From Lutimonas halocynthiae (lineage in GTDB: Bacteria; Bacteroidota; Bacteroidia; Flavobacteriales; Flavobacteriaceae), in contig NZ_JAUFQO010000002.1 of NCBI RefSeq assembly GCF_030409835.1, forward strand, positions 248,001-312,000: a stretch of 64,000 bases of DNA, read 5' to 3'. The position numbers and the translations under genes were made by a program. The notes under the pieces are model-generated. The model saw only the letters and a program-made list of their open reading frames with translations. It did not search any database and was not told the origin of the DNA. Below, in pieces: positions 6,437 through 63,333 of the stretch. Positions within the stretch are counted from its first letter, which is position 1, and each line of letters opens with the position of its first letter.

Positions 6437-9052
6437 TTAATTTTCTAAAAGTTTTTCAGCAGCTTCAATAGCTGGTTTTAAACCTCCTGGGTTTTTACCT
6501 CCGGCAGTAGCAAAAAATGCCTGACCACCACCACCTCCTTGGATATGCTTACCCAGTTCACGTATGATAGTCCCGGCATTCAAGCCTTTCGCTTCAACTA
6601 GGTTTTTTGAAATATAAATGGTTAGCAATGCTTTGCCATTAAGATTAGAGCCACCTATAAAAAATAAGTCATCAAGTTCATCTGCAATTTCAAAGGCAAT
6701 ACTTTTCATTGAACCAGCATCAGTATCAAGAAGTGCCCCAATAAAGTTTACACCGTTTATTTCCTTTTTATTTTTTATTAAATCGTCTTTAAAAGAAGCA
6801 GCTTTTAACTTGTTTAGTTGCTCAATTTCTTTTTTAAGCTTTATGTTTTCTTCCTGTAGAGTAACTACTGACTTTAATATATCTGTCGTGTTTTTTAGGG
6901 CAGATTTAACTTTCCCAAAAACTTCATCCTGATCAAAATAATAATCCCTGACCGTGTCTTTGGTAATGGCCTCAATTCTTCTGATTCCCGATGCTATAGC
7001 GCTTTCAGTCATGATTTTAAAGTGCCAGATATCCCCAGTGTTTTGAACATGGGTTCCACCGCAAAGTTCAGTTGACTGGCCAAACTTAATAGTTCTTACG
7101 GTGTCGCCGTATTTTTCACCAAAAAGCATAATGGCTCCTGATTTTTTAGCTTCATCTAAAGGAACTTGCCTGTTTTCGTCCAGAGCGATATTTTCCTGAA
7201 TCCTCGCATTGACAAATTGTTCAATACTCTTTAATTCTTCAGGAGTCAATTTTGAGAAATGAGAAAAATCGAATCTCAGGTTCTTATGGTTTACTGAAGA
7301 CCCTTTTTGTTCCACATGATCGCCAAGCACAGTTCTGAGAGCCTGATGTAATAAGTGAGTCGCCGTATGGTTAGACATGGTTCTAGATCGAAACTCCTGA
7401 TCAACTACTGCCTTGAACGTTTCAGTCGGATCATCTGGCAGGCTTTTAGCAAAATGAAGGATTAGATTGTTCTCTTTCTTGGTGTCAAGAATATAGATCA
7501 CATTACCATTGCTCAATTCAAGGTAGCCTTTGTCACCAACCTGGCCACCTCCTTCAGGATAAAATGGCGTCATATTAAAGACCAGCTGATACATATCTCC
7601 ATCTTTTTTTGAAGTGACTTTTCTGTATCGCGTAATCTTTACGTCGGCCTCCATATGGTCATAGCCAATAAATTCCTGGCCTTTATCTTCTAAAAGAATA
7701 TTCCAGTCATCCGTATCAACAGCAGCGGCTGCTCTTGAACGGGATTTTTGTTTGGCCATTTCTTCTTCGAATTCCACTTCGTTAAACGTCATTCCTTTTT
7801 CACGAAGAATAAGCGAAGTAAGGTCTTTTGGAAATCCATAAGTGTCATATAATTCAAAGGCTTTTTTACCCGAAATATTTTTGTCTTTAGCATTGGCAAT
7901 GATCGTGTCAAGAAGAATCAAACCTTGGTCTAAGGTCCTTAAAAACGAATGCTCTTCTTCTTTAATCACATTGTGGATGAGGTGCTTTTGAGCCTTAATT
8001 TCAGGGAAATTATGTCCCATCTGCTTTTCAAGTACTTCAGCTAATTGATAAATAAAAGGTTCCTTTTTGTTTAGAAAAGTAAAACCGTATCGAATAGCTC
8101 TTCTCAAAATTCTTCGAATCACATATCCTGCTCCGGTATTTGAAGGAAGCTGCCCGTCTGCAATAGCGAAAGCTACAGCTCGAACATGGTCAGCAATGAC
8201 ACGAATAGCCACATCCGTTTTTTCATTTTTACCATAAACATTATCAGTGATCGTTTCAATTTCTCTTATGATTGGCATAAAAACATCCGTATCATAATTT
8301 GATTGAACTTTCTGAATGACCATACAAAGTCTCTCAAAGCCCATCCCTGTATCAATATGCTTTTCAGGAAGTGCTTCAAGTATTCCGTTTGCCTTACGAT
8401 TAAATTCTATAAAAACAAGATTCCATATTTCAATCACCAAAGGATGATCCATGTTTATCAGATCCTTTCCTGGTATTTTTTGTTTTTCTTCAGCTGACCT
8501 AATATCAATATGAATTTCACTGCTTGGTCCGCAAGGGCCTTGCGCTCCCATTTCCCAGAAATTGTCTTTTTTATTTCCTTTTAAGATTCTGTCCGCTGAA
8601 ATATGCTCCAGCCAAAAATCATAAGCTTCCTGATCAAACTCAAGATGGTCGTCTTTGTCTCCTTCGAAAACAGTTATATAAATGCTGTCTTTATCGATTT
8701 TATAGACTTCAGTCAATAATTCCCAGGCCCAGGCGATAGCTTCCTTTTTAAAATAATCACCAAAACTCCAATTCCCAAGCATTTCAAACATGGTATGGTG
8801 ATAGGTGTCCATTCCAACTTCTTCAAGGTCGTTGTGTTTCCCAGATACTCTCAAACATTTTTGGGTATCTGCGATCCTTGGTTGTGTAGGTTCTTTTTGT
8901 CCTAGAAAATATTCCTTGAATGGATTCATTCCAGCGTTGACAAACATCAGACTCGGGTCGTTTTTATTCACTAATGGAGCCGATTGAACTATTTCATGCT
9001 TTTTAGAAGCAAAGAAGTCCAAAAATTGTTTTCTGATTTCTTGTGAAGTCAT
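6437..9052 (-). CDS. alaS: Alanyl-tRNA synthetase
   Basis: An 871-residue enzyme of normal length. The class II aminoacylation domain begins at residue 1 ([20 protein letters not shown], then [16 protein letters not shown]). The editing domain carries the zinc-type motif NHTATHLLH near residue 560 and CGGTH near 665. The C-terminal DHHA1 domain ends with a glycine-rich segment, [14 protein letters not shown], near 840. It charges tRNA-Ala and removes mischarged Ser or Gly. It is divergent from the M23 peptidase gene at 9173. TAnnTTTG-like boxes occur on both strands in the 120-bp gap (for example 9150-9157 on the minus strand). Confidence 0.98.
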
Positions 9053-54735: not shown

Positions 54736-55530
54736 TCAAAGTAGCCCCTGGGACATTAATTCAAAAATAACATCTGAAATATGGTTTTTTTTGTATTTCT
54801 CCAAAATGTTTCTTCGATGCGTGTTTACTGTATGCAGACTCAGAAACAGATTTTCTGCTACCTCAGAACTTGTCAGTCCGGTTGCTACTAGTTTTAATAT
54901 CTCAAATTCACGCGCTGTTAATTGATGCCCATAACTTAGCAATTCTTCATCAGGAAACCTGAACAGTGAAATGTCATTTCCTACATAGTAATGAAAACTG
55001 TCTTTTTTTATCGGGTAAGTATCAATATTGGTATTCACCTGCATATAGTATACAGTTTTATGTGGTGTGGGGCTATAAAACATATAACATTGAAAAAGGT
55101 GATCAGCATAACTTTGATCGGGTTTTTGCATTCGAATATTTGTCGATAATAAGGCAGAACCTTTATGTGCAAGAAGTAGGTCTTTATCAAGATCCAATAA
55201 TTTGGAACGTCCCATTCCAAATCGTTCAAGATCATCAGGATGCACCCTGTTCAACATTTCCAAAGGTGTATTGGTGGCCGGATCTACTCCCAGCATTTCC
55301 ATACTTTGTTTACTTGTATAGATAATCTCAATTTTAGTAAGATCCATCATGATGAGCATCTGATCATTCTCAGTCATCTTTTCCCCTAATTTTTGTATCA
55401 GCGGATCTTCTTCATTTATGTTTAGAAAGCCGGAAGGCAGATAGGATTCAATAAAGTCGTGATAAATACTATAATTATAAGATGTTGCCAAATTACCGAA
55501 GACAAGGGGCTTATGGTTTTTTTTCGACAT
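54736..55530 (-). CDS. PAS-LuxR transcriptional regulator
   Basis: 264 residues. Residues about 48-170 look like a PAS fold (MMDLTKIEIIYTSKQSMEML, LNRVHPDDLERFGMGRSKLL, a beta-rich end KTVYYMQVNTNIDTYPIK). Residues about 203-262 are a LuxR/GerE helix-turn-helix (LTAREFEILKLVATGLTSSE, LHTVNTHRRNILEKY). There is no receiver domain, so it probably senses a small ligand or redox signal directly. It is divergent from the accessory gene run starting at 55669 with 138 bases between, which makes it the natural candidate regulator of that run (inference). Confidence 0.87.
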   Translation of the reverse strand: MSKKNHKPLVFGNLATSYNYSIYHDFIESYLPSGFLNINEEDPLIQKLGEKMTENDQMLIMMDLTKIEIIYTSKQSMEMLGVDPATNTPLEMLNRVHPDDLERFGMGRSKLLDLDKDLLLAHKGSALLSTNIRMQKPDQSYADHLFQCYMFYSPTPHKTVYYMQVNTNIDTYPIKKDSFHYYVGNDISLFRFPDEELLSYGHQLTAREFEILKLVATGLTSSEVAENLFLSLHTVNTHRRNILEKYKKNHISDVIFELMSQGLL

Positions 55531-55668
55531 ATGTTATATGAATCTATATAATTGAAAAGACATGTAAATATAGAAAAAATACCAACAAATGAGTATTGTG
55601 TTTTTTTGTTTATGCAGGTAACTTTGAATCGATAGATCAGATAACCCTTTTAAATTGATCTTAAGATT

Positions 55669-56205
55669 ATGGCAGAATTAACAGCAAATTTATTTCGAAA
55701 TTATTTTGGTGGAAGCTGGTTGGCTAAAATTTCAAGAAACGGTGAATATTTGCGTGACATAGAGTTTAATTGGCCCGAAGCATTTGGAAAGTATTCATCA
55801 TTTGGGACTGAAGAAGGCTTAAAAGTTCCACCTGGAGGAGGTTTTCACGATGATACGATGAAGGTGACTGTGTCGGGATGGCGTCAGGATGTCAAGAGAT
55901 GGTACATTTCCTGGTTCAATGAGTTTGGTGGTTACGGAGAAGTGCAATGGACTTCTCAACAGATAGTGAATGGCATAAATATTCTTTATGGGTTTGGCCA
56001 TGAGTGCAAGCAAGAAAGCGATGACCTAACCAATCATATTATTTTATGTGAAATGACAGATCAGAATAATTTCAAATATACAATTCGCAGTTTCAAGAAA
56101 GGATTAATCCAAATTATGGCGAAGCGCACACGGACTGCAGAAGAACTTAAGATCCTTATGAAGGATGAAGTTAAGGAGGTCATTCCATTTACTGATTTAT
56201 TATAA
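55669..56205 (+). CDS. Unknown cytosolic protein
   Basis: 178 residues without signal peptide or membrane segment. Trp- and Gly-rich beta strands dominate (FGGSWLAKISRNGEYLRDIE, DTMKVTVSGWRQDVKRWYIS, WFNEFGGYGEVQWTSQQIVN), suggesting a lipocalin-like or other small barrel that binds a ligand. The C-terminus is helical (RTAEELKILMKDEVKEV). I do not recognise the family. It is the first gene opposite the PAS-LuxR regulator and 39 bases upstream of an outer-membrane protein gene. Confidence 0.72.
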   Translation: MAELTANLFRNYFGGSWLAKISRNGEYLRDIEFNWPEAFGKYSSFGTEEGLKVPPGGGFHDDTMKVTVSGWRQDVKRWYISWFNEFGGYGEVQWTSQQIVNGINILYGFGHECKQESDDLTNHIILCEMTDQNNFKYTIRSFKKGLIQIMAKRTRTAEELKILMKDEVKEVIPFTDLL

Positions 56206-56244
56206 AGCCCACTCTAAATTATATAAATGCTATTTAAAATTAGT

Positions 56245-57135
56245 ATGAAAGATTCCATATATAAACAAGTATTAACCTTTGTATTCATATTTTGCCTCAA
56301 TTTACAAGCTTTTGGGCTGAGTCATTCTATGGGGGTAATACCAATTGATACGCTAAAGAGTAAAGCCGACAAAAAATTGGATAGACAAAATGAGAGGGAT
56401 ATTTTTAAAAGCAACAATAAAAGGTTTAAGATTAGTTTTGACTATGTACATGCAACACTGGATACTGAAATATCATTTGAATTACCCGAAGGAAATTTAC
56501 ACTCCGTCATAAGTCTTGAAAATGATCTGGGTCTGCCCTCTAACAGTTACTTTTTTACGGGCTCATTTTTATATAGAATTACACCTAGTAGTGGTCTATA
56601 TGCACAGTATTATGGAATCAACAGGAAGGAGAATACCCAAACAAAAAGGGATTTAATTTTTAAAGGTGAAATCATCCCTGCCGGAACCGATATAGAAGCG
56701 CATTTCAACACTCAGGTCATAAGTACAGGTTATTTGTATTCTGTGTTAAAAAATCCAGATGCACATTTAGGGTTTTATTTCAATATTTACTTAATGTTTC
56801 TGGAAACAGCTGTACAATCAGCATATGGGTATCAGGATTTAAACGTTGAGCTTGTAGCTCCGCTACCAAATTTTGGAATACTAGCTTCTTTCAAACTGAA
56901 TAAATGGCTTTATTTCAACGGAAATATAGGCTTCTTCGCATTAAAGTTAGAAGACTTTGGTGGCTCTCTACACAATCTTGATATTGCCTTTATGGCCAAG
57001 CCCGTTGATTGGTTAGGTATTGATCTTAGTTATCAGGTTTTTGATGTTATGGTCGAATTTCCATCAGATGATATCAACACCAAAATTGATTATAATTTTA
57101 GAGGACCTTCCATCGGGTTATCGTTCTTTTTTTAA
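56245..57135 (+). CDS. Outer-membrane beta-barrel protein, unknown
   Basis: 296 residues from ATG 56245 (MKDSIYKQVLTFVFIFCLNL, signal peptide); an ATG six codons earlier is in frame. After a charged linker (KADKKLDRQNERDIFK) come amphipathic strands with alternating aromatics, and the last residues GPSIGLSFFF end in Phe as outer-membrane barrels do for BAM recognition. Predicted 10-12 strands. It may be a porin or channel for the substrate of the locus. Confidence 0.75.
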   Translation: MKDSIYKQVLTFVFIFCLNLQAFGLSHSMGVIPIDTLKSKADKKLDRQNERDIFKSNNKRFKISFDYVHATLDTEISFELPEGNLHSVISLENDLGLPSNSYFFTGSFLYRITPSSGLYAQYYGINRKENTQTKRDLIFKGEIIPAGTDIEAHFNTQVISTGYLYSVLKNPDAHLGFYFNIYLMFLETAVQSAYGYQDLNVELVAPLPNFGILASFKLNKWLYFNGNIGFFALKLEDFGGSLHNLDIAFMAKPVDWLGIDLSYQVFDVMVEFPSDDINTKIDYNFRGPSIGLSFFF

Positions 57136-57168
57136 AAATTACTGATTAGAATTAAAATATATAGGCAA

Positions 57169-57352
57169 ATGGATATTTCTTTTAAAAAGGTTGAGAATGG
57201 TAAAATCATTCTTATTAATGAAGATTTAAAGCCCGGGAATTGGCAAGAAAAATCAGATTGGATACCTGCTTGTCTGGTTTATATTTATTGGATTAGCAGC
57301 TGGGCTACTTGTCTTTTTTTATAGAAAGGGATGGTTTGATTATTGGCATTGA
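57169..57352 (+). pseudogene. Small single-helix membrane protein gene with a +1 frameshift
   Basis: From ATG 57169 the frame reads MDISFKKVENGKIILINEDL, then K-P and an early stop. Shifting one base near 57235-57250 gives the continuation GIGKKNQIGYLLVWFIF, then IGLAAGLLVFFYRKGWFDYWH, stopping at 57350-57352: a convincing membrane helix with a charged end. The total length of 184 bases is one more than a multiple of three, as expected for a single inserted base in a 60-residue gene. It may be a sequencing error, a recent mutation or a recoding site. Confidence 0.6.
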
Positions 57353-57395
57353 GTAAAATTTATCGAAATAATGAAGTTTATCGTCAAAATTAATT

Positions 57396-58118
57396 ATGGT
57401 TTTTAACTCCAGACTACTAAAGCTCATTTTTATTTTCTTTCTGATTTTTTCCGTACGGAAATCAATGGCCCAGGAATCAGGTCAAATTTGGTTTGAGTAC
57501 AAACCCGCTTATTCTTTTTCCAAGGGATATAAGCTTGGCATGAGGGCTTCTTTGAGAACAAATTTAGAGGATCCACGTTGGCGCACTTTTGAAGTACGAT
57601 TTATGCCTGAGAAAAAATTGAATTTGCATTTCGACATTCTAGCTTCCTTGCAATTTTTGGAAACATTGCAATACAAGGGTTTGACAACTTCTGAAATTAG
57701 ATTTAGTGCTGGAGGTCGGTACCATTTTCTTCCGGGTAAAAGAATAAAATCAGGAGTAATGGCACGGATAGAGTTTAGGAATATTTATAAAAAGGAGGCT
57801 ATGGAATGGACCTATGCCACAAGACCAAGGTTACAATTTTTTGCGTCCATGCCCTTAAACGAAAAAAGTATGTCGCCAGATCATGTTTGGTATATAACTT
57901 CTTTTGTAGAATTCTTTTATCAAAATGAAGATGATGTGCAAGAAAGATATGCCAACAGATACTGGATTCGTCTGGGATTAGGCTATAAAATAAATAAAAA
58001 AATACAATTAGAATTGCTTTATAACCGTCAGGATTCTAAGAATACTATCACTGATGGTTATGAGGATTTGTCAAAAGAAAATATTCTAGTCTTTTCGTTT
58101 AAGCATAAACTCCATTAA
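57396..58118 (+). CDS. DUF2490-family outer-membrane protein
   Basis: 240 residues with a signal peptide ending KSMAQ. The body matches DUF2490: GQIWFEYKPAYSFSKGYKLG, WRTFEVRFMPEKKLNLHF, SEIRFSAGGRYHF, MEWTYATRPRLQFFASM, and the C-terminal strand ILVFSFKHKLH. It is probably a small outer-membrane barrel of unknown role. It lies 43 bases after the frameshifted small membrane gene. Confidence 0.8.
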   Translation: MVFNSRLLKLIFIFFLIFSVRKSMAQESGQIWFEYKPAYSFSKGYKLGMRASLRTNLEDPRWRTFEVRFMPEKKLNLHFDILASLQFLETLQYKGLTTSEIRFSAGGRYHFLPGKRIKSGVMARIEFRNIYKKEAMEWTYATRPRLQFFASMPLNEKSMSPDHVWYITSFVEFFYQNEDDVQERYANRYWIRLGLGYKINKKIQLELLYNRQDSKNTITDGYEDLSKENILVFSFKHKLH

Positions 58119-58259
58119 TCCCCAAATATGGAAATTAAATATACTTATTTATGAGTATTTCATAGGCAAACTAGACTTCGTAATTTTGGGTAAGTCAATT
58201 AGTTCAAATCGAAAAAATGATTAATTGGAATAATGAATATTTTAAAAAAAAATACAACC

Positions 58260-59639
58260 ATGGCAAAAAAAACAACTCTAAAACCAGATAATAGTAAGAA
58301 CCTGGAATCAGGACTTGGGGATCTAGCAAAATTAGTTCTTGGGAAACTGGATGAACATGGCTTGACCATGGAACAGGCCGTATCCGCTATGCAAGCTGCA
58401 GGTACCGAAGTAGCAGCAGAGAAAGCTGCAAAACCTCCCAAAAAAGCACCTGCCAAAAAAGCCAAACCAAAGAGTACAGCGGTGATAAACGTCGTTGATG
58501 GCCAAAAATTGAGCACTGTGGCACTGGACTGGAAACAAGTGTGGTACACCAATTGTCCTATGGTATCGGCCAACAATGTTGACCAGGAGTTGGGATGGTG
58601 TCGCCAGGAATTTAAAAATATGGGAATAGAGTATGATTATATGCGTCATACACGCGATAACGACTTCTACCCACATTACAGACACAACCTTAAAAACCTC
58701 ATTCGGTTTGGTGGCCTCTATCCGCCAATAGCTGTACATGCTGATCTTAGCAAAACGGTGTTGTTAGGAGCAACATGGGTTTATGAGGGTGGTTGTATGG
58801 CTGTGCGTATTGATGATAAAATATCTCAAATGAAGGATTTGAAAGGCAAAAAAATTGGCCTTTCAAAAAGTATGAATACCCTTAAAAACGACTGGTGGCG
58901 AATACAAGAGCACATGGGTATCTTGAGTATGCTGGAATTAAACAACATGACAAAGGACGATGTGGAGATTGTAGAATTCCCTTATCCGGATGACTGGTAC
59001 AACGACCCAAAAATGTTGGCGCCAATGAATAATCCAACTGATTTATGGGCAGCAAGGGATCACAAGCACGACCTAGCATTTCGCCCATTAGAAACGGCAT
59101 TATTGGAAGGGAAAGTTGATGCTATTTATACGCAGAGTAAGGTTTTCCAACATCTCCAGGAAGATACCGGTAAGATCAAAATGATTGAAGACTTGTCAAG
59201 GTATCCGGACTGGACCAAACAAGTTGCAAACACACCAGCTATTATTACCTGTACCAAAGAAATGGCTGATAAACACCCTGAACTCGTTGTCGCTTATATG
59301 AAAGCTATGGTCAAAGTAGGACATTGGGCCAATCAGCACAAGCCTGCTGCATCCGCGATACTAGACCATCAGACTTTCTACCGCGACGCGCAAGATACTT
59401 ACAGAGGCATTAAAGATGTTGACATGGTACCTAGTTTGAACGCAACGAATATGAAGGCCATTAAAATTGGCAAGGACTTCATGCTGGAACACGGCTATAT
59501 CAAGAATGACTTTGATGTGGATAAATGGGCAAGACCTGAATTCCTCCAGCAAGGCGTTCATGCGTGGATGGAAGAAGAGTATGCTAAAAAAAGCTGGGGC
59601 AGACTTAAAGAAGGTGCAGTTTTAAACAAGAAGGCATAA
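58260..59639 (+). CDS. DszB-family sulfinate desulfinase homolog with N-terminal extension
   Basis: 459 residues from ATG 58260 (an in-frame ATG at 58233 adds nine). From residue about 95 it aligns along its length with DszB (2'-hydroxybiphenyl-2-sulfinate desulfinase), which has an SBP-like fold. Y-T-N-C99-P matches Y-S-N-C27-P; H139 and R149 in HYRHNLKNLIRFGG match H60 and R70 in HFTYDQPAYTRFGG with identical spacing. KGKKIGLSKS, EGKVDAIYT and WARPEFLQ also correspond. The catalytic Cys-His-Arg set is thus complete, so it should release sulfite from a sulfinate. Residues 1-90 are an extra helical segment and a Lys/Ala/Pro linker. No signal peptide and no ABC permease or ATPase nearby argue against a transporter protein. 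Confidence 0.82.
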   Translation: MAKKTTLKPDNSKNLESGLGDLAKLVLGKLDEHGLTMEQAVSAMQAAGTEVAAEKAAKPPKKAPAKKAKPKSTAVINVVDGQKLSTVALDWKQVWYTNCPMVSANNVDQELGWCRQEFKNMGIEYDYMRHTRDNDFYPHYRHNLKNLIRFGGLYPPIAVHADLSKTVLLGATWVYEGGCMAVRIDDKISQMKDLKGKKIGLSKSMNTLKNDWWRIQEHMGILSMLELNNMTKDDVEIVEFPYPDDWYNDPKMLAPMNNPTDLWAARDHKHDLAFRPLETALLEGKVDAIYTQSKVFQHLQEDTGKIKMIEDLSRYPDWTKQVANTPAIITCTKEMADKHPELVVAYMKAMVKVGHWANQHKPAASAILDHQTFYRDAQDTYRGIKDVDMVPSLNATNMKAIKIGKDFMLEHGYIKNDFDVDKWARPEFLQQGVHAWMEEEYAKKSWGRLKEGAVLNKKA

Positions 59640-59690
59640 GGTTAGGCTAAATAAATAACGTTTTATTTAAAACCATAAATAACAGTTTTG

Positions 59691-59727
59691 ACGCCAAACT
59701 GTGCAGTTTGCAGTTTGGCGTTCTTTT
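59691..59727 (+). terminator. Terminator after the DszB-like gene
   Basis: ACGCCAAACTG (59691-59701) and CAGTTTGGCGT (59711-59721) form a perfect 11-bp stem with a nine-base loop and a T-rich tail. Confidence 0.85.
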
Positions 59728-59777
59728 ACCAAAACTCATTTCGTCTGAACTATTTATAAAGATAAAAAACGAAACAC

Positions 59778-60374
59778 ATGAAAAAGATTGAAAACACCAT
59801 TAAAAAAGTGTTCATGCCTTTGGCCTTACTTTTGGTTTTTGGACAGTTGGTTTTTGGCCAAGAAACAAAATCTGAACTTCCTGAACGTAAACAAACTACA
59901 CTTGGACTTTATGTCACCTCAGCCGAGGCTTATGAAATGTGGAAAGCAAATCCAGAAAAGGTGACGATACTTGATATACGTACACCAGAAGAATATTTAT
60001 TCATCGGTCATGCAGCTATGGCATGGAATATTCCGGCATTTGACCAATCCTATGAATGGGATTCTGAAAAGCAAGGATTTCCCATGACACCTAATCCTGG
60101 TTTTGTTGGAATAATTAAGGATAAATTTCAAGCTGATGACATACTTTTAATTACTTGCCGCTCTGGTGACCGGAGCGCAATGGCTGTCAATGAGTTGGCA
60201 AAGATTGGATACAAGCAAGCTTATACGATTACCGATGGTTTTGAGGGGGGTATTGTAGCTGATGAAACTAGCGTCTTTGTAGGTCAGAGAATGGTAAATG
60301 GATGGAAAAATTCAGGCTTACCATATACCTATCAAATAGACCCCAATTTAATGCCTTTGATAAAAGAAAAGTAA
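59778..60374 (+). CDS. Exported rhodanese
   Basis: 198 residues: a signal peptide (about 1-27, ending VFGQ), then a rhodanese domain with ILDIRTPEEYLFIGHAAMAW (64-83), active-site loop C127-R-S-G-D-R-S, and a C-terminal segment NGWKNSGLPYTYQIDPNLM. The catalytic Cys is present, so periplasmic sulfurtransfer is likely. It is paralogous to the cytosolic protein at 61906, with the same motif order including the unusual 'GQR...NGWKNSGLP' tail. It starts the second transcript after the DszB-like gene. Confidence 0.88.
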   Translation: MKKIENTIKKVFMPLALLLVFGQLVFGQETKSELPERKQTTLGLYVTSAEAYEMWKANPEKVTILDIRTPEEYLFIGHAAMAWNIPAFDQSYEWDSEKQGFPMTPNPGFVGIIKDKFQADDILLITCRSGDRSAMAVNELAKIGYKQAYTITDGFEGGIVADETSVFVGQRMVNGWKNSGLPYTYQIDPNLMPLIKEK

Positions 60375-60387
60375 ATTAATAAGAATT

Positions 60388-61188
60388 ATGAAAATCAAGA
60401 ATTTAAGTAAATCATTTTTTTTGGGAATTTTATTATCGGTTTTGATTTCTGGAAACTTGATCGCCCAGGAAAGCTCATCTGACGCTTCTAAAAATACCAA
60501 ATGGGCTTTTTTGGTTGAACCCTATTTAATGTTTCCACAGATGAATGGAAGTGTAGGACTGGGAATTGTACCTGATGTATCTGTTGATGCGAGTGCAAAC
60601 GATATTTTCAGCAATTTGAAAATGGGTTTTATGCTAAACCTCGAAGCTACCAATGGCAAATGGACCATTGGATCTGATGTGTTGTATATGAGTCTTGCCC
60701 AAAATGTAGCGTCCAAACATGATATAATAAATGGCGAGGTAACTGCTAAACAACTGGGTTGGGAAGTGTCAGGAATGTATAAAGTAACCCCATGGCTTGA
60801 TCTGGGATTAGGAGGATTGGTTAATTCAGTCAAGGCAGGATTCGATATTAATAGGGAGGAAATAATTGGTGAAGATCCTCAAATTATAAATCAACAAAGG
60901 TCAGGAACAGAAACCTGGCTTGATCCAATGATTATCGCCAGGATAAAAAGCCAGGCAGGGAAAAAATTTATTTATCAGTTTCGAGGAGAAATTGGAGGAT
61001 TTGGAATTGGATCCGACCTAGCATGGCAAATACAGGCTTATGCAGGTTACCGATTTTCTAAGCTATTTGAAATGACCGGTGGATATAGAATTATTAGTCT
61101 GGATTATGAAAATGGTGAAGGATTAGACAGATTTATGTATGATGTGGATACTTCTGGACCGGTAATTAGATTTGGTTTTAATTTTTAA
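60388..61188 (+). CDS. Outer-membrane beta-barrel protein
   Basis: 266 residues with a signal peptide ending LIAQE and an eight-strand-like barrel pattern (WAFLVEPYLMFPQMNGSVGL, WTIGSDVLYMSLAQNV, FEMTGGYRIISLDYENGEG), finishing in GPVIRFGFNF with terminal Phe. It is close to the general OmpW/outer-membrane-barrel class; a specific family is not evident. It starts 13 bases after the exported rhodanese and is probably co-transcribed. Confidence 0.78.
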   Translation: MKIKNLSKSFFLGILLSVLISGNLIAQESSSDASKNTKWAFLVEPYLMFPQMNGSVGLGIVPDVSVDASANDIFSNLKMGFMLNLEATNGKWTIGSDVLYMSLAQNVASKHDIINGEVTAKQLGWEVSGMYKVTPWLDLGLGGLVNSVKAGFDINREEIIGEDPQIINQQRSGTETWLDPMIIARIKSQAGKKFIYQFRGEIGGFGIGSDLAWQIQAYAGYRFSKLFEMTGGYRIISLDYENGEGLDRFMYDVDTSGPVIRFGFNF

Positions 61189-61270
61189 AACATAAAATTT
61201 AAAAAACAATGAGATAATTTTAAAAACTTGATTTAAAGACTTTTACAGCAAATTTCCTTTTTAGAATATT

Positions 61271-61705
61271 ATGTGGTCAAATCTTTTTATTGGTTGTATT
61301 CTCATTGTTTTTAGCGTTATCGTTCATGCCTGTGCAACCCGTTTTGTGATGTTTTTGGTAAGAAAAAAAAGAGCTAATCCTGAGGTTTATAATTCTAAGG
61401 AGTTCTGGACTTCGATAGTTGTACTAATAATGTTTATGGCATCTTTTATTGAGGCTCTTGCATGGGCATTTATTTACTTTTACCTAGAGACTATAAACAG
61501 TTTAGAAGAATCTTTATATTTCTCAATAGTTACTTTCACAACTTTAGGATACGGTGATGTAGTTTTATCAAATTCATTTAGGCTTTTGGCCTCTTTGGAA
61601 GCTGCAAACGGAATTATAATTTTTGGATGGTCAACAGCTATCATTATAACAGTGGTACAAAATTATTTTTTGAACCCCGATATTGATAAGGATATAAAAC
61701 AATAG
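61271..61705 (+). CDS. Potassium channel-like ion channel protein
   Basis: 144 residues with three membrane segments (about 3-29, 48-72, 108-130). The pore loop has the potassium selectivity filter T-L-G-Y-G-D (residues 91-96) preceded by SLYFSIVTFT. There is no RCK or cyclic-nucleotide domain. It would form a tetrameric K+-selective inner-membrane pore. Its role near sulfur genes is unclear; membrane-potential or pH balance are possible. Confidence 0.85.
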   Translation: MWSNLFIGCILIVFSVIVHACATRFVMFLVRKKRANPEVYNSKEFWTSIVVLIMFMASFIEALAWAFIYFYLETINSLEESLYFSIVTFTTLGYGDVVLSNSFRLLASLEAANGIIIFGWSTAIIITVVQNYFLNPDIDKDIKQ

Positions 61706-61905
61706 AAATGAATTGGGTGGATGAAAAAAGATACTTTACTGCTATTTAGGAATTTGTTCCAATATGAATAGTTTTTCTGTTTCGCGACATACATCTAATA
61801 TTATCATAAAATATACCTAATAGTCAATATTTACAATGGATTAACTCTTCGTAAACTTAGTATTTCAAATTAAAATAAAACGATTGCTACAACTAGATAA
61901 ACGTT

Positions 61906-62409
61906 ATGAAACTACCAAAAGAAAAACAGACTAGCCTGGGCTTATATGTTACTTCAACAGAAGCCTATGAAATTTGGAAAGACTCACCTAAGAAAGTAAA
62001 GGTTCTGGATGTGAGAACCCTCGATGAATATATCAATATAGGCCATGCGAAAATGGCTTGGAATATACCTGGGTTTTTACAGACCTATAATTGGGATGCT
62101 GAGAAAAATTGTTTTTCATTCAAAATGAATGATGATTTTATAAAACATGTGCAAGAAGTATGTAAACCAGAGGACATTATTTTGGTTACCTGCAGGTCAG
62201 GGGGGCGCAGTGCCTTTGTGGTTAATTTACTGGATAAACTGGGTTATAAATTCGCATACAATATTACGGATGGTTTTGAAGGAGACACGGTAACCGATCC
62301 GGAAAGTTTGTATCAGGGTCAAAGGTTAAAAAATGGCTGGAAGAATTCTGGGCTACCATGGACCTTTAAGGTGGACCCAAAACTGATGAGAGTTCCAACC
62401 CATAGATAA
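61906..62409 (+). CDS. Cytosolic rhodanese, paralog of the exported one
   Basis: 167 residues without a signal peptide. It has VLDVRTLDEYINIGHAKMAW (33-52), active-site loop C96-R-S-G-G-R-S and the tail NGWKNSGLPWTFKVDPKLMR. It aligns with the protein at 59778 from residue 5 to the end (about half the visible positions identical by eye), so the pair arose by duplication and was split between periplasm and cytosol. Likely role is sulfane-sulfur transfer in the cytosol, perhaps linked to sulfite handling. Confidence 0.88.
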   Translation: MKLPKEKQTSLGLYVTSTEAYEIWKDSPKKVKVLDVRTLDEYINIGHAKMAWNIPGFLQTYNWDAEKNCFSFKMNDDFIKHVQEVCKPEDIILVTCRSGGRSAFVVNLLDKLGYKFAYNITDGFEGDTVTDPESLYQGQRLKNGWKNSGLPWTFKVDPKLMRVPTHR

Positions 62410-62469
62410 GAGAAGATTCAAATAAACTAAATAAGTGGGAATATATTTAATCAGGAAGGGTAATATATC

Positions 62470-63333
62470 ATGGGAATAGAAGAAATTTATAAAATAGTGG
62501 TGATGATTTTCACCGTTTCGAATCTTGCTGCCATGGGGCTCGAGATTAACAAAAATGAAGCTATCAAGGCGATTAAAAACCCAAGATTTGTTATACTAAT
62601 TATCGTATGGGGTTGGATCGTTGGCCCTGCTATTGCATGGGGAATAACTAGGATTATTCCTTTATCAGATGCTCATGCGGCTGGATTGTTATTGATTAGT
62701 TTGGCGCCTACAGCACCGTTTTTCCCATTAATGGTAACAAAAGCGCGTGGAGATATGTCATCTGCAGGAGCTTTTATACTGGTTGCTACTATTGGAACCG
62801 TTGTGTTTTTACCTTTAATGGTTCCTTTCTTGATAAAAGGTTTAGTGGTAAGTGTTTGGGGACTAGCTAAACCACTTCTTTTGATGGTGCTTTTACCCTT
62901 AGTTGTTGGTTTTTCGATTAAAGTATATAAAGAACCAATTGCGTTAAAAATTGGCCCTGTAATCAAGAAAACAGGCACCTTATTTTTGCTGATTACTGCA
63001 GTGATGACATTTTGGTTGTATTGGGAAGAAATGCTTAGTGCCATAGGTAGTTTTGCTGTTGGTGCACAGGTCCTGTTCTTCGCCTTGATCACGTTTCTGT
63101 CTTATAAAATTCCATTTGGCCTTAAAAAGACACAAAGAAGTGGAATGGCTTTGGGTATGTGTACGCGTAATATAGCTGCCGTATTTGTGGCCTATTTCAG
63201 TATTACAAACCCTGATCCCGGGGTTTTTGTAATGATCATTTTAGTGGTGCCGTTGGCACTTATTGTGGCGCTTATTGCCGCGAAAATATTTGCCAGGGAT
63301 GTTGAAACGGATAAGACATTAAAACATGTCTAA
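62470..63333 (+). CDS. BASS-family (bile acid:Na+ symporter-like) permease
   Basis: 287 residues with 8-9 membrane segments, typical of the BASS/SLC10 family: NLAAMGLEINKNEAIKAIKN, AGLLLISLAPTAPFFPLM, SGMALGMCTRNIAAVFVAYF with the Thr-Arg-Asn-x-Ala motif of the Na+ site. Substrates of the family are organic anions, including sulfonated bile acids and pantoate or pyruvate. Import or export of an organosulfur anion is an inference from the neighbours. It lies 60 bases after the cytosolic rhodanese. Confidence 0.82.
   Translation: MGIEEIYKIVVMIFTVSNLAAMGLEINKNEAIKAIKNPRFVILIIVWGWIVGPAIAWGITRIIPLSDAHAAGLLLISLAPTAPFFPLMVTKARGDMSSAGAFILVATIGTVVFLPLMVPFLIKGLVVSVWGLAKPLLLMVLLPLVVGFSIKVYKEPIALKIGPVIKKTGTLFLLITAVMTFWLYWEEMLSAIGSFAVGAQVLFFALITFLSYKIPFGLKKTQRSGMALGMCTRNIAAVFVAYFSITNPDPGVFVMIILVVPLALIVALIAAKIFARDVETDKTLKHV

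Follow-up and report, generated by a model that had tools for sequence, protein, structure and literature searches.

What reaction is carried out by the 459-residue protein encoded on the forward strand at 58260..59639 of the window, i.e., the 64,000-nucleotide stretch of a Lutimonas halocynthiae contig analyzed here, and which genes accompany it? The original prediction, made from the DNA letters, was a DszB-type desulfinase in a Bacteroidetes, with a complete Cys-His-Arg active site and an added N-terminal domain. That reading was partly supported: it was right in kind and too narrow in scope. The protein is probably a cytosolic, cofactor-free sulfinate desulfinase that belongs to the DszB superfamily, forms part of a clade of its own, and would hand sulfite to rhodanese and persulfide-reductase neighbors. 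The interest lies in the spread and the neighborhood of this clade rather than in the triad. What is new here is the neighborhood; a search of open-licence PMC full text returned no paper on the clade or the module by title or abstract, among the matches listed.

Conservation of the DszB active-site residues

A phmmer search of the PDB aligned residues 94-433 with residues 22-361 of DszB (2de2; E = 1.1e-10), in agreement with the predicted alignment from the catalytic Cys onward; SsuA (3uif) was the next family (E = 0.033). C27, H60, and R70 of DszB correspond, as had been proposed, to C99, the proposed proton donor (forward-strand codon 58554..58556), H139 (58674..58676), and R149 (58704..58706), with the same 10-residue spacing from His to Arg. 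The R149-F-G-G152 stretch (58704..58715) matches DszB R70-x-G-G73, which places G152 at G73, and T97 falls at S25. Excerpts of a computational study of DszB model its active site with C27, S25, H60, R70, and G73 and describe RXGG as a motif conserved among DszB homologs (PMC6100217). All five residues are kept in the window protein, S25 as T97. In the same excerpts, H60Q lowers DszB activity only about 17-fold, and the His is therefore weak evidence.

C99, T97, H139, R149, and G152 are invariant in 24/24 ortholog rows, which excludes chance similarity to DszB. Over a broader set of 36 DszB-type rows (the 24 orthologs, nine plasmid paralogs, the intermediate protein L043, and two DszB; L004, L024, and L025, with broken or fragmentary frames, were left out of residue counts), C, P, R, G, and G occur in every row and H in 35, being replaced by D in one Sphingobium plasmid copy. 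G151 is absolutely conserved, as are C99, R149, and G152. C, H, and R are all absent from the aligned E. coli SsuA and TauA.

The segment of DszB at about 136-155, W155 included, has no counterpart in any of the 24 ortholog rows, and the two proteins therefore do not necessarily have the aromatic pocket in common. In the window clade, DszB residues F61, Y63, and Q65 are replaced by Y, H, and L, respectively. Together, the missing segment and these replacements indicate that the substrate is probably not 2'-hydroxybiphenyl-2-sulfinate. N143, H268, K269, and D271 never vary within the clade and are not common to DszB, with the alignment unsure at 268-271.

Placement relative to DszB and the binding proteins

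Comparison of DszB with the SsuA/NMT1 families, suggested in the original prediction as a check, came out ahead for the DszB type. Profile-profile comparison gave E values of 2.1e-38 to eight DszB-type plasmid proteins and 8.2e-19 to two DszB versus 2.8e-10 to five SsuA/TauA-type proteins, and the clade profile had DszB as its sole PDB match at E <0.01. DszB also took Foldseek ranks 1 to 3 (E = 2.4e-15 to 6.7e-15), followed by SsuA 3uif (1.2e-12), Thi5 (4.5e-11), and 9jp7 (1.7e-5); the gap between DszB and SsuA is modest, and the fold is common to both. The query for this search was an AlphaFold model with a mean pLDDT of 64.7, below 50 at residues 42-100 and 127-159, which contain C99, H139, and R149.

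In a tree rooted with five binding proteins, the 36 DszB-type rows split off at 100/99, with support of 100/99 for the window clade plus L043 and of 100/100 for the window clade, which has a long stem and a shallow crown. The program flagged long branches that come together, including those of the binding proteins and of DszB, and an unusual letter composition in eight rows. Residues, profiles, Foldseek, and the rooted tree all favor a DszB-type protein rather than a binding protein. Since the clades are separate in the tree, the window protein represents a sister line of DszB, not DszB. We thus rejected a DszB ortholog on the tree and on the missing segment; instead of such an ortholog in a Bacteroidetes, the tree depicts one member of a distinct clade that spans many phyla.

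Gene start and N-terminal extension

A second in-frame ATG lies at 58233, nine codons upstream of 58260. The downstream start is favored because the nearest relative, L002, from a Marinilabiliales metagenome-assembled genome (MAG; Bacteroidota), also has a start with MAK at the matching position. From there, 98 residues precede the catalytic Cys, versus 26 in DszB. The extension (58260..58532, forward strand) comprises two predicted helices (residues 14-32 and 37-55) and a Lys/Ala/Pro linker, mostly at low pLDDT in the AlphaFold model. The two-helix part occurs in the window protein and L002 only, among the aligned ortholog rows. Start codons of the other orthologs permit about 20-70 residues before the Cys, and L022 carries a separate Lys-rich stretch of its own there. 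The predicted additional domain is thus present, linker included, and the extension is genuine but lineage specific; with its helical part in two rows, it does not define the family, and we rejected it as a family feature. Between the window gene and L002, dN/dS is 0.04-0.07 in the core and 0.17-0.19 in the extension. The low core ratio means that the gene is under selection, and the extension is likewise under purifying selection.

A hydropathy scan, which is not a signal-peptide program, gave a highest 15-residue N-terminal mean of 0.58 versus 2.06 for E. coli SsuA; no signal peptide is evident, as the original prediction had it. One Gemmatimonadota ortholog (L006 2423-3709) has a twin-arginine-like signal that makes export possible, so not every member of the clade need be cytosolic.

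Gene neighborhood in the window

Upstream of the gene lie a LuxR-type regulator (54736..55530, reverse strand) with a PAS-like region whose PAS match is under the cutoff, a candidate regulator of the cluster with a related ORF upstream in L002; a probable outer-membrane protein of no Pfam family (56227..57135, forward; 28% identity over 152 amino acids to a protein at L019); and a DUF2490 outer-membrane protein (57396..58118, forward), a weak relative of which (23%) stands beside the second module described below. Downstream, all on the forward strand, follow a long-form rhodanese with a CRSGDRS loop and a hydrophobic N terminus, probably a Sec signal (59778..60374); an outer-membrane beta-barrel-like protein with a weak Pfam match under the cutoff (60388..61188); an ion channel; a second long-form rhodanese, with a CRSGGRS loop and no hydrophobic N terminus (61906..62409); and a BASS/SBF-family transporter (62470..63333) that is 62% identical to a copy near the Halieaceae ortholog L018. 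The beta-barrel is 45% identical to the copy in the second module and 42% identical to one beside a rhodanese in the genome of L002.

A Pfam scan of the ten proteins of 54736-63330 yielded no ABC-transporter family over the cutoff, which bears out the predicted lack of ABC partners, and no dszC among these neighbors. The absence of dszA also held: the bacterial-luciferase family of DszA-type proteins (PF00296) had no match at E = 0.001 in the genome of the window, and the control search found it in 10/14 genomes. Without a DszA-type partner, nothing known in this genome would make a sulfinate.

Gene neighborhood across loci

With HMMs built from neighbor clusters, we searched the six-frame ORFs of 25 loci (L002-L023, L026, L027, and the window) and those of 19 controls, which were 17-kb stretches taken from six carrier genomes. 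A rhodanese domain was found in 22/25 loci versus 0/19 controls, SulP in 9/25 versus 1/19, BASS/SBF in 7/25 versus 0/19, and a CoA-disulfide-reductase/rhodanese fusion in 9/25 versus 0/19 (the L014 copy is cut by the contig end); training of the HMMs on the case loci somewhat favors this contrast. Among the other markers, response regulators occurred in two controls and crotonase in one. The rhodanese is a stand-alone protein in 14 loci (the window, L003-L005, L008-L014, L021, L023, and L026) and is present only as the fusion or a fragment thereof in eight (L007, L015-L020, and L027), L027 having in addition a matching 92-amino-acid frame. No rhodanese domain was found in L002, L006, and L022, all on contigs of <4 kb. 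The subfamily of the second window rhodanese occurs in 12/24 carrier genomes or records, the other 12 being without it, and, among 60 relatives, in the genome of the window only. In L007, the fusion is reduced to a 151-amino-acid frame with the rhodanese end (7328-7783); the close relative L009 has a 573-amino-acid protein. This rhodanese/SulP/BASS/CoA-disulfide-reductase neighborhood, unmentioned in the original prediction, is the best clue to the role of the protein.

On a plasmid of Rhizobium leguminosarum ATCC 14479 (L026 5457-14768), the gene stands between two 2-hydroxyacyl-CoA-dehydratase/double-cubane-type proteins and two activases, a set that is unexpected in a rhizobium, with BASS, two rhodaneses, and SulP downstream. 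A DUF2092 protein is encoded near this ortholog, and the L023 ortholog has a related ORF nearby. The Rhizobium plasmid pRL22b1 carries, away from its ortholog, DUF2092, the fusion, a long-form rhodanese, and a carboxymuconolactone-decarboxylase-like gene (L068 4167-10113).

A second sulfur module in the same genome

Another contig of the genome encodes a second module (L063 934-13442; L069 13282-16228), which centers on a glycyl radical enzyme with a radical-SAM activase nearby. It also contains the beta-barrel, a rhodanese of the window subfamily, the fusion, BASS, SulP, and a phosphofructokinase-like gene; a PAS histidine kinase and response regulators lie upstream. Its fusion is 68-74% identical to long matches near the clade gene in other phyla, and its SulP matches those of L020 and L026 at 71-73% identity but the others at only 26-34%. 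The activase scored best with the 3-sulfopropanediol dehydratase activase model (353.6, under the cutoff of 430). In the glycyl radical enzyme, C-x-G takes the place of the C-x-E found in four relatives, and we therefore did not adopt a C-S lyase identity for it; tblastn found no match to it in the stretches of the other loci.

Distribution and probable horizontal spread

Among genome contigs, 27 stretches matched a pattern and 24 encode relatives, with 61-88% identity in the best segment; across rows labeled with ten phyla, identity to the window protein is 60-88%. The majority come from MAGs, for which taxonomic labels may be erroneous, and L002 is the Bacteroidota entry among the ten labels in the tree. 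Named records with the gene include Kaistia dalseonensis, Chelatococcus asaccharovorans, Humibacillus, and two Synechococcus strains, and the gene is also present on two R. leguminosarum and two Rhizobium johnstonii plasmids. The gene is absent from the 59 other relatives of the genome of the window (60 searched) and from the 344 other genomes of the phylum (345 searched), its own genome being the sole carrier in both. Counting the central genome, samples centered on other carriers gave 1/350 for L009 (phylum; E = 1e-25), 2/347 for Kaistia (order; E = 1e-60), the second being the divergent L040/L043, and 1/121 for Synechococcus (family; E = 1e-60). One small family has the gene in 2/6 genomes. 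The gene is rare yet highly similar between hosts, and its tree intermingles phyla, all of which points to a recent horizontal spread.

Broken or fragmented copies occur in Synechococcus WH 5701 (L025 7983-10396), L024, and L004; the hosts include a Chitinophagaceae MAG and a Thermoleophilia MAG, and gene decay or assembly errors would account for them.

Proposed function and alternatives

The desulfinase identity rests on homology, and we infer the reaction, the sulfite product, and the roles of the neighbors, as well as the horizontal spread. By analogy to the mechanism computed for DszB, as described in excerpts of PMC6100217, R149, the G152 backbone, and H139 would bind the sulfinate by its SO2- group, and the sulfur-bearing carbon would receive a proton from the C99 thiol. 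SO2 would then leave and appear as sulfite. The rhodanese and the CoA-disulfide-reductase/rhodanese of the persulfide reductase type, where present, would join this sulfite with sulfane sulfur or reduce it. The window rhodanese at 59778..60374 is proposed to handle sulfite or sulfane sulfur, and the SulP and BASS transporters presumably move sulfur oxyanions or the organic anion.

The strongest alternative, which we regard as unlikely, keeps the fold and the residues and has them break a bond other than C-SO2, e.g., by release of sulfite from an S-S compound. The substrate could then be thiosulfate, an S-sulfonate, or a product of persulfide oxidation, and the protein would work with the rhodanese and the persulfide-reductase-type protein in inorganic sulfur metabolism. 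The commonest neighbors indeed belong to families whose substrates are sulfane sulfur rather than organic compounds, and the genome of the window lacks the DszA-type partner. High conservation of the clade on its long stem, loss of the DszB segment at about 136-155, and the clade-specific N143, H268, K269, and D271 (the last three in an unsure part of the alignment) also speak for this alternative. However, characterized relatives with the C-H-R-x-G-G set act on C-sulfinates, and several loci argue for an organic substrate. The order in L009 is fusion, clade gene, ferredoxin-nitroreductase, enoyl-CoA hydratase, rhodanese, and BASS/SBF; in L007, too, the ferredoxin-nitroreductase fusion and then the crotonase/enoyl-CoA hydratase directly follow the clade gene. 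The L002 gene is likewise followed by the ferredoxin-nitroreductase, and a separate contig of the same genome (L067), which also has the hydratase, makes it consistent with the L009 order; a crotonase/enoyl-CoA hydratase adjoins the gene in L005 as well. The L009 ferredoxin-nitroreductase had no match in the genome of the window, in a search run with no positive control.

It is improbable that the protein is a noncatalytic cytosolic binding or sensor protein derived from periplasmic proteins of the SsuA/NMT1 type. The two types do have a fold in common, and the broad Pfam fold family NMT1 (PF09084) scores 35.3 bits, over its cutoff of 20.5, a match that tells fold, not function; SsuA_fam is the best NCBIfam model (62.3 bits), although under its cutoff of 163.5. 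Against such a role stand the absolute conservation of C99, R149, G151, and G152, the lack of C, H, and R in E. coli SsuA and TauA, and the grouping with DszB-type proteins by profile and tree. An SsuA/TauA-like binding protein was therefore rejected on residues, profile, and tree, together with the lack of an evident signal peptide and of ABC partners adjoining the window gene. The original prediction warned that such genes are easily misannotated as transporter components, and four plasmid orthologs do carry the label "ABC transporter substrate-binding protein."

Another enzyme of this fold, either a Thi5-like pyrimidine synthase or a decarboxylase resembling 4,5-dihydroxyphthalate decarboxylase, is very improbable: both types appear in the Foldseek list (Thi5 and 9jp7), electrophilic protonation of carbon would also suit decarboxylation, and a benzoyl-CoA-reductase-related pair lies beside the L026 copy, but the clade profile finds only DszB in the PDB (E <0.01), the DszB residue set is kept, and Pfam and NCBIfam models recognized no thiamine or aromatic-acid gene among the neighbors in the window.

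Implications of a possible mobile desulfinase

If the protein is a sulfinate desulfinase, as we favor, a whole clade now labeled as transporter binding proteins would consist of enzymes that break down organosulfur compounds in the environment, and sulfinates would have a wider role as a currency than has been assumed. A bolder reading, which we consider less likely than not, makes cofactor-free desulfination a horizontally mobile trait rather than a rarity of fuel-desulfurizing actinobacteria, with one strongly conserved enzyme acting on a small, common, natural sulfinate or S-sulfinate-like compound. In this reading, the trait would travel as a cross-phylum module of rhodanese, persulfide-reductase-type protein, and anion transporters with a swappable catalytic head, for which the glycyl radical enzyme would be an example. 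Identity of 60-88% in distant hosts suggests one constrained substrate, and hence one assay could explain the family. The neighborhood predicts sulfite release followed by formation of thiosulfate or sulfide. Excerpts of PMC12168087 describe DszB as slow and product inhibited; the clade offers putative desulfinases from outside fuel pathways for biocatalysis.

Comparison with known systems

SsuA, TauA, and NMT1-type proteins resemble the window protein in overall fold, with weak local sequence similarity; SsuA and TauA are periplasmic and have ABC partners, unlike the window protein.

L043/L040 (order of Kaistia; G1039) is sister to the window clade at 100/99 and keeps C, H, and RxGG. The clade profile gives it 271 bits, whereas full-length members reach at least 680, and its neighbors are a reductive-dehalogenase/QueG-like protein and SsuA/SsuC-type genes; rhodanese, SulP, BASS, and the fusion are all absent. 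At L043 7860-10373, the sister protein is followed by one that is weakly similar to reductive dehalogenases and to QueG.

The closest clade by profile comparison comprises the DszB-type plasmid proteins of rhizobia, Sphingobium, Streptomyces, Variovorax, and Paracoccus (nine rows; 21-28% identity), 8/9 with the same residue set and one Sphingobium copy with D for H. They are annotated as "ABC transporter substrate-binding protein," "monooxygenase," or "hypothetical protein." Near 5/6 of the loci inspected are ABC-transporter genes, flavin mono-oxygenases, or acyl-CoA-dehydrogenase-like genes; the sixth, L033, has mainly hypothetical neighbors, and at L030 a sulfurtransferase lies two genes on. 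Two phage-collection records labeled "Acinetobacter phage" (CAKLQF020000010.1 and CAKLQH020000050.1), perhaps bacterial contigs, also contain genes of the DszB type, which have 27% identity and a desulfinase annotation. Viral contigs scanned with query A1, one DszB-type protein, and Mycobacterium intracellulare DszB held no relative.

DszB itself (2de2/2de3) is the 2'-hydroxybiphenyl-2-sulfinate desulfinase of dszABC and the 4S pathway. A DszB peptide that PMC4839641 ascribes to Chelatococcus sp. is identical at every residue to the Rhodococcus DszB chain and does not occur in the clade protein of Chelatococcus asaccharovorans. Unlike DszB, the window protein belongs to a separate, long-stemmed clade, is missing the segment at about 136-155, has Y/H/L for F61/Y63/Q65, has no DszA-type partner, stands among rhodanese, SulP, and BASS neighbors, and bears an N-terminal extension that it shares with one other row. 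Like DszB, which is its best PDB match, it has the same fold, the C-H-R-x-G-G set with the His-to-Arg spacing, and a Ser/Thr two residues before the Cys; the two sequences are about 25% identical along most of their length.
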